Below the pieces are notes generated by a model that saw only the letters and a list, made by a program, of their open reading frames with translations, was not told the origin of the DNA and did no database searches. 64,000 nt of DNA, taken from positions 1 to 64,000 of the forward strand of contig JAJRRO010000081.1 of NCBI GenBank assembly GCA_024279425.1, in the 5' to 3' direction. A program made the position numbers and the translations under genes. This DNA comes from Bacteroidota bacterium (lineage in GTDB: Bacteria; Bacteroidota; Bacteroidia; Flavobacteriales; Flavobacteriaceae). This document shows positions 17,680-22,197 of this stretch, in pieces (the first letter of the stretch is position 1; the number at the start of each line of letters is the position of its first letter).

Positions 17680-18468
17680 TCAAAAATCCATGTATGATAT
17701 ATCAAGGAGCGTATCGCAATCATTTAAAAAACTTTCAAGAATGGCAACCTCGGTATTCGTAAAGAATGTATGCCCTCCTTTAGTTTTTGAATTATTTAGC
17801 AATCCATTTTGATTCAAAATCACCTTGGTCTGCCGTGCCACCGCTTCCCCAGAATCTATTATTTTTATATGTTCGGGAAGCAATTCTTTTAAAACAGGTA
17901 TCAAATATGGGTAATGGGTACAACCCAATACCAAATGATCCATACCTGCATCCAACATGGGTTTCAAATATTTCTCTAGCAATACTTTAGTCTCGGATGA
18001 GTTCACTTTTGCACCTTCAATCAAAGGTACTAATCCAGTACCCACCTGCTCAACTATTTTGATTCCGTTTGCGTGATTTTCCGAGGTACTATGAAAAAGG
18101 CCACTTGACAATGTGCCTTTTGTAGCCAATACCCCAACAGTTTTTGATTGTGATTGCAGTGCAGCTGGCTTAATTGCAGGTTCAATCCCAATAAAAGGAA
18201 TCCTGTAATTCTTTCGCAAATGACTGATAGCATTAGTGGTTGCGGTATTACAGGCCACCACCACAAGCTTACAGCCCTTTTCCAATAAAAGTTCCGTATT
18301 TTTTATGCTATATTGAACAATCTGCTCTTCTGACTTACTGCCATAAGGCGCATTCTTACTATCAGCTAGATAAATGGTCTTTTAATTTGGCAGCAATTCA
18401 TTGATTTCTTTCCAAATGGATGTGCCACCGACTCCTGAATCAAATATACCGATGGGATGATTGTTCAT
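17680..18468 (-). pseudogene. murI: Glutamate racemase, interrupted by an in-frame TAA
   Basis: The reading frame from ATG 18468 encodes MNNHPIGIFDSGVGGTSIWK and reaches a TAA at codon 29 (18384-18382). It then continues in the same frame as KTIYLADSKNAPYGSKSEEQ and the remainder of a normal racemase to 17680. Without the stop it would be 262 aa, the usual MurI length. The DSG catalytic motif is before the stop; both catalytic Cys motifs (ACNTATTNA and LGCTHYP) are after it. The stop most simply derives from GAA or AAA by one substitution. MurI supplies D-glutamate for peptidoglycan and is normally essential, so this is a real nonsense mutation with backup elsewhere, a sequencing error, or a gene rescued in translation. 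An internal ATG at 18285 would give a 201-aa protein lacking the N-terminal active-site half. Confidence 0.9.
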
Positions 18469-21013: not shown

Positions 21014-21780
21014 TGATAGAGGTTAATGACATATACAAGTCATTCGGAGACACTCATGTATTAAAGGGCATTTCTACCTGTTTTGACAAGGGGAAGACCA
21101 ATTTGGTCATAGGACAAAGTGGCTCAGGAAAGACGGTTTTCTTGAAATGTCTTTTAGGCTTATTAAGTCCTGATAAAGGCACCATAAGCCATGACGGAAA
21201 AATATATTCCCAATTATCTGGGGATGAGCAGCGCAATCTAAAGCAGGAAATGGGCATGGTATTTCAAGGAAGTGCCTTGTTCGATTCTTTGACGGTCGAG
21301 GGCAACGTCATGTTCCCATTGGAGATGTTCACCAAGCAATCGCTATCGGAAATGCAAGATAGGGTTGATTTTGTACTCAAAAGAGTGAATCTTGTTGATG
21401 CACACAAAAAATATCCTTCGGAAATTTCAGGTGGCATGCAAAAAAGAGTTGCCATTGCTAGAGCCATAGTAATGAATCCAAAATATCTGTTCTGCGACGA
21501 GCCTAACTCTGGCCTAGATCCTAAGACGGCAATTCTTATAGATAATCTTATTCAGGAAATAACCCAGGAATATGATATAACAACCGTAGTAAATACACAC
21601 GACATGAATTCGGTCATGGAGATTGGCGAGAAAATTATTTTCCTTAAAAACGGTATCAAAGAATGGGAGGGTACCAAAAATGAAATCTTTAAGACCGATA
21701 ATGAGGCCGTGACCAATTTTGTATATTCTTCCGAACTCTTCAAGAAGGTAAGGCAAATGTATATCGAAGAACGCAACTAG
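21013..21780 (+). CDS. mlaF: MlaF-type ABC transporter ATP-binding protein
   Basis: A 255-aa ATPase paired with the MlaE permease. Walker A is GQSGSGKT, the signature is ISGGMQKRVAIARA, Walker B is LFCDEPNSGLDP, and the H-loop is in VVNTHDMNSV. I start at 21013 (MIEVNDIYKSFGD), overlapping the permease stop; the in-frame ATG at 20953 would lie inside mlaE. The pair points to lipid-asymmetry maintenance of the outer membrane. The substrate-binding MCE subunit must be encoded elsewhere. Confidence 0.94.
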   Translation: MIEVNDIYKSFGDTHVLKGISTCFDKGKTNLVIGQSGSGKTVFLKCLLGLLSPDKGTISHDGKIYSQLSGDEQRNLKQEMGMVFQGSALFDSLTVEGNVMFPLEMFTKQSLSEMQDRVDFVLKRVNLVDAHKKYPSEISGGMQKRVAIARAIVMNPKYLFCDEPNSGLDPKTAILIDNLIQEITQEYDITTVVNTHDMNSVMEIGEKIIFLKNGIKEWEGTKNEIFKTDNEAVTNFVYSSELFKKVRQMYIEERN

Positions 21781-22197
21781 TCCTGAACCACTTCCTTAAG
21801 TTGTATAGTACTATCCTTCAGTCTTAGTTTTAACCACTCATGTAGTTTTTTGCTGTCGGCCACAGTTTGGAATTGTTCGGCATCATGCTTCCATTTTACC
21901 TCAAAAACAGGAATCGTATCCAGCGTATTGAAATCTGTTAGTCTAGTTGGGAGAGAACCCAAGGATTGTGGGTTTTCGTAATTAGTCTTTGCCTCAGTAC
22001 TTATATCCGCAAAAGGAATATCGGCTATAATAGCCTCTTTGGTTGCCTCTTGATCCGTATTTTTACGGATGTCTTAAAAGTTAGGAAATAAATTTTTTGG
22101 TACTTCCAAGTAAACCGTGAATATCCTTTTTTACTTCTTCGCCACTATCTCCTTCACTTAGTGGAACATTATTGTCACCATTTAAATTTTTACTCAT
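21777..22197 (-). pseudogene. Decayed DUF389 membrane protein gene
   Basis: From ATG 22197 the frame gives MSKNLNGDNNVPLSEGDSGE and reaches KKFIS before a TAA (22083-22081). After a one-base shift the family-like text resumes as DIRKNTDQEATKEAIIADIPF, then jumps to ISTEAKTNYENPQSLGSLP and a C-terminal KLHEWLKLRLKDSTIQL. The first part resembles the start of flavobacterial DUF389 proteins, and the last part resembles their soluble C-terminus. The whole transmembrane core, normally several hundred residues, is missing. So I see one nonsense codon, one frameshift and a large internal deletion. The DUF389 assignment is from memory of the family and is moderately sure. Confidence 0.65.

Follow-up and report, generated by a model that had tools for sequence, protein, structure and literature searches.

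A single in-frame TAA in the otherwise intact glutamate racemase gene of a draft Flavobacteriaceae genome

Glutamate racemase (MurI) is normally essential for the cell wall; D-glutamate is used by the MurD/MurF pathway, and murI is reportedly essential in Escherichia coli (Doublet 1993). The catalytic residues of MurI presumably lie within the motifs DSG, ACNTA and GCTHY. The need of the pathway for D-glutamate is covered by an excerpt of PMC8788868. According to an excerpt of PMC5885031, DapF of Chlamydia trachomatis makes D-Glu, and the same excerpt describes that organism as having no murI annotated at all. Aspartate/glutamate racemase-type enzymes are present in E. coli strains, where, as excerpted from PMC8142540, EcL-DER converts L-Asp irreversibly to D-Asp and YgeA is a slow homoserine racemase.

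Here we present the analysis of a gene that resembles MurI (TIGR00067; PF01177) in its full-length frame, motifs and score, but differs in carrying one in-frame TAA at codon 29. The window (64,000 nucleotides, the whole stretch of DNA analysed) is contained in a contig of 82,912 bases (C102) of a draft genome of 140 contigs and 5.27 Mb, coded G000, with a listed completeness of 100% and contamination of 1.35. The closest named protein matches belong to Flavobacteriaceae, including Maribacter and Pelagihabitans, with 70-72% identity. The sister genome is coded G002, and the relatives G005, G007 and G008 served as controls. If the stop is real, the group would be able to dispense with MurI and a replacement enzyme would be indicated; if it is not, the case is a reminder that biological conclusions from an isolated stop codon in an essential gene should wait for the reads when the genome is a draft.

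The murI frame and its relatives

Apart from the TAA, by which the single uninterrupted frame is lost, murI is open throughout and shows no second defect. Read through, it encodes 262 residues, the same length as in the sister genome, and scores 225.8 bits in a profile search against a TIGR00067 cut-off of 146.65. DSG lies 5' of the stop, and ACNTA and GCTHY lie 3' of it. The earlier note had described murI as broken by a single in-frame TAA at codon 29, with DSG before the stop, both catalytic cysteines after it and the remainder intact and full length; its coordinates, strand, stop and codon number were all right, and the motifs are seen in the read-through protein. The first in-frame ATG, GTG or TTG after the stop is the TTG that opens the longest downstream ORF (Table 1). 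murI stands between genes for a dihydrofolate reductase (PF00186) and a member of the phosphodiesterase family (PF01663), and has the same neighbours in G007 and G008.

Table 1. Coordinates of murI, its stop and other features mentioned in the text (positions in the window unless a contig or locus is named)
Feature	Position	Strand	Remarks
murI (glutamate racemase) frame	17680..18468	minus	starts with ATG at 18468 and ends at the natural TGA (17682-17680)
In-frame TAA, codon 29 of murI	18382..18384	minus	Glu at other aligned loci
Longest ORF 3' of the murI stop	17680..18285	minus	TTG start at 18285; the 201 residues lack the parts with DSG and ADSKNAPYG
DUF389 gene remnant	21777-22197	minus	about 1 kb of the middle gone relative to G007 and G008
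Histidine kinase gene with adjoining LytTR-type gene	C102, ~79595-81563		outside the window; kinase with in-frame TGA and frame change near its start
Frameshift candidate	C115, ~30169		looks true by eye
Frameshift candidate	C94, ~120215		looks true by eye
Insert in G002	L123, 8115-11901		murI on one side, the dihydrofolate reductase gene on the other

No second glutamate racemase exceeds the TIGR00067 cut-off elsewhere in the 5.27 Mb draft. A plasmid collection was also searched, with no match. Among 60 genomes, G000 included, MurI passes the cut-off in 56, with an internal stop in G000 alone; in the 59 others it is uninterrupted in 55, and four have no match. Of 395 Flavobacteriaceae genomes searched, 377 pass the cut-off and 17 lack a match, and among the matches listed only the MurI of G000 has a stop. 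Of 118 aligned murI loci, two are G000 itself; the remaining 116, among which some genomes are represented more than once, all have Glu at codon 29. The sister genome, with 93% DNA identity to G000 over 2.4 kb, likewise has Glu at this codon, a single-base difference from the TAA; the comparison with close strains proposed in the earlier note thus gave Glu in the sister and at all the other loci.

Between G000 and G002, codons 1-200 of murI show a dN of 0.033, a dS of 0.197 and a dN/dS of 0.17, inside the range of 0.029-0.276 for 19 other ORFs, one of which lies antisense inside another gene; the 3' part is strongly divergent, and the whole-gene dN/dS is 0.37. The gene looks constrained relative to G002, so that the stop should be recent or not real. 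G000 has one changed base in its sole, otherwise intact and constrained murI.

In G002, about 3.8 kb missing from G000 separate murI from the dihydrofolate reductase gene. This insert carries ORFs of 320 and 711 aa and adjoins the divergent 3' end of the G002 murI.

D-glutamate need and candidate sources

G000 has one MurD over its cut-off, and the window contains an intact MurF gene; the cell should therefore require D-glutamate. The earlier note had suggested a nonsense mutation covered by a D-amino-acid transaminase or a second racemase, and a genome-wide search for a second murI or dat; neither was found over its cut-off. The best protein of G000 for the transaminase (TIGR01121) reaches 84 bits against a cut-off of 277.45; its highest score is as an aminodeoxychorismate lyase, at 139.9 bits and again under the cut-off (176.85). 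None of the 60 genomes has a TIGR01121 member over the cut-off. What stood of the suggestion is a racemase of another subfamily. An intact ORF of 250 aa on contig C4 matches the aspartate/glutamate racemases of TIGR00035 with 219.7 bits (cut-off 93.1), a separate subfamily to which the murI of G000 does not belong, and matches the aspartate/glutamate racemase PRK10200 with 256.2 bits, under its cut-off of 417. The TAA counted in this ORF is the one that terminates it. Residues 20-248 align with the solved chains 3ojc and 5hqt, both named aspartate/glutamate racemase, with CTNTMH and GCTEI in common; 5hqt we take to be EcL-DER. TIGR00035 members over the cut-off occur in eight of the 12 genomes of the genus. 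Judged by its sequence, the C4 enzyme is the best candidate cover for murI, with a predicted supply of D-Glu.

A MurI match is missing from 17 genomes of the family (G031, G083, G094, G156, G187, G194, G213, G220, G250, G306, G312, G338, G351, G354, G363, G372 and G417) and from two of the order (G044 and G057). These 19 genomes span 1.2-3.0 Mb, compared with 5.27 Mb for G000. None has a TIGR00035 match, so a TIGR00035 racemase is not the replacement of MurI in them. MurD is over its cut-off in 13, and 12 of these 13 also have DapF over its cut-off; both cysteine motifs are present in eight of ten DapF proteins. DapF may therefore be regarded as a lead for the D-glutamate source of the MurI-less genomes. 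It is also over the cut-off in G000, and equally in both genus relatives searched, so that its presence in G000 says little. With C. trachomatis, for which the excerpted report gives a MurI-free route to D-Glu through a bifunctional DapF, G000 shares a DapF; it differs in keeping an interrupted murI where none is annotated in C. trachomatis, and the racemase activity of its DapF is putative.

Other interrupted genes in the genome

Parts of nine G000 contigs, 1.125 Mb in all, and 1.332 Mb from the controls G005, G007 and G008 were scanned by composition; raw stops inside coding-like sequence numbered 25 in G000 versus 14 in the controls (P = 0.024 on raw counts). Under a uniform rule requiring a Pfam match that exceeds its gathering score and extends across the stop, with no preset minimum overlap, 5 of the 25 G000 candidates and 0 of the 14 control candidates pass (P = 0.020; 4 versus 0, P = 0.044, without murI, whose Pfam match begins only 9 residues 5' of the stop). 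The five are murI, a GH18 gene, a pseudouridine synthase, an M19 dipeptidase and a non-specific endonuclease. An AAA ATPase of the control G005 looks broken by eye and fails the rule; if it is counted, the comparison becomes 5 versus 1 (P = 0.10), and if Pfam matches below the cut-off are allowed, 6 versus 1 (two-sided P = 0.053). Two control candidates clipped by piece edges were rerun uncut, and neither passes. Among seven read-through proteins, one has no match at all and a LuxR-type one has its domain wholly after the stop. In six genes with an aligned relative the stop is one base off a sense codon. The excess of single-stop genes in G000 over its relatives is suggestive, a fragile hint, and would fit either a noisy consensus or real decay.

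A comparison with the ORFs of relatives showed no excess when unfiltered (20 and 17 stops in G000 versus 19, 17, 9 and 26 in control comparisons); by eye, these stops lie mostly in ORFs antisense to genes. With ORFs chosen by coding score there were 8 stops in G000 (1 + 3 + 4, murI counted three times) versus 6 in the controls. Three genes of G000 appeared true by eye, namely murI, the GH18 gene and one that is DUF1579-like (named by eye); in the controls none did. The DUF1579-like gene has stops in the sister genome as well. Split matches, a sign of frameshifts, numbered 0 in nine comparisons. Scanned by composition for frameshifts, G000 yielded 35 raw candidates over 1.125 Mb and the controls 32 over 1.332 Mb; 7 of the former and 0 of the latter were viewed, and three looked true by eye (a LytTR-type gene and the two candidates of Table 1). 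In a test for an excess of radical residue changes, these amounted to 17 of 283 in G000, 11 of 246 in G007 and 6 of 149 in G008. A count of 11 single-stop genes in G000 versus 1 in the controls (P = 0.0019) was withdrawn, as it had been sorted by eye with the genome known and with shifting methods and thresholds.

The LytTR-type gene, also named by eye, adjoins the interrupted histidine kinase gene on the murI contig and contains a 7-base tandem duplication where the G002 frame is open. The pair is broken several times, the duplication included, so that some of the decay is real.

Readings of the stop

The likeliest single reading, to which we assign a probability of about 0.42, is a wrong base or a transient variant. 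The TAA would be a wrong consensus base, or would belong to a variant that is in the minority or at a dead end, and would not be fixed in a living lineage; the actual codon 29 of the organism would be Glu, and MurI would function normally, supplying D-glutamate to MurD. That the base is wrong we infer from the single-base difference from the sister and the constraint over codons 1-200, from the standing of MurI as the sole one over the cut-off in a genome with MurD and MurF, from the absence of the stop in every relative among the genomes and loci examined, from the reported essentiality of murI in E. coli and from the suggestive excess of single-stop genes. Against it stand the fragility of that excess once the G005 ATPase is counted, the stops of the DUF1579-like gene in the sister, and the kinase pair, which proved broken more than once and for that reason lowered our estimate from 0.45. 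If all 11 cases picked by eye were errors, moreover, the rate would be 2.4e-4 per base, which we judge high for contigs of 28-331 kb. Of the alternatives named in the earlier note, sequencing error and real mutation thus both stand, and three biological rescues, when combined, have somewhat better than an even chance and are likelier than a wrong base.

Each of these rescues is unlikely by itself. The foremost is a real and recent nonsense mutation with D-glutamate supplied by the C4 racemase, which is intact, over its cut-off, alignable with solved enzymes and of a kind common in the genus; yet E. coli strains have EcL-DER and YgeA, with the excerpted activities given above, and murI there is called essential all the same, and the MurI-less genomes have no such racemase. 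Ranked directly behind it, and likewise unlikely, is a real mutation in a gene-losing genome that obtains D-glutamate through DapF, an unrecognised enzyme or from outside the cell. The MurI-less genomes of the family and order, most of them with MurD and nearly all of those with DapF, the chlamydial precedent as excerpted, and a DapF together with real gene decay in G000 argue for it, but the MurI-less genomes are much smaller, and DapF is shared with the genus relatives and is a putative racemase in G000. Improbable, too, is a real stop that marks the ongoing loss of MurI from a flavobacterium with a large genome, in which another racemase or epimerase would already make D-glutamate; as part of the same improbable reading, G000 would stand at an early stage of a loss that several genera of the family with smaller genomes have already completed. 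Least probable is a real stop with enough MurI made through rare TAA readthrough or restart after the stop. The intact and constrained remainder of the frame is consistent with it, but all 36 tRNAs found in G000 read sense codons and none has a suppressor anticodon, though scoring covered 150 of 362 first-look candidates and the list may be incomplete; the gene directly upstream of murI itself terminates at TAA, and a restart product would begin at a TTG and lack the N-terminal part. Readthrough or an internal start, as offered in the earlier note, is weakened accordingly.

Also in the window is the remnant of a DUF389 gene (Table 1). The sister genome has a remnant of similar length with 88% identity, so that the loss is probably older than the split between G000 and G002.
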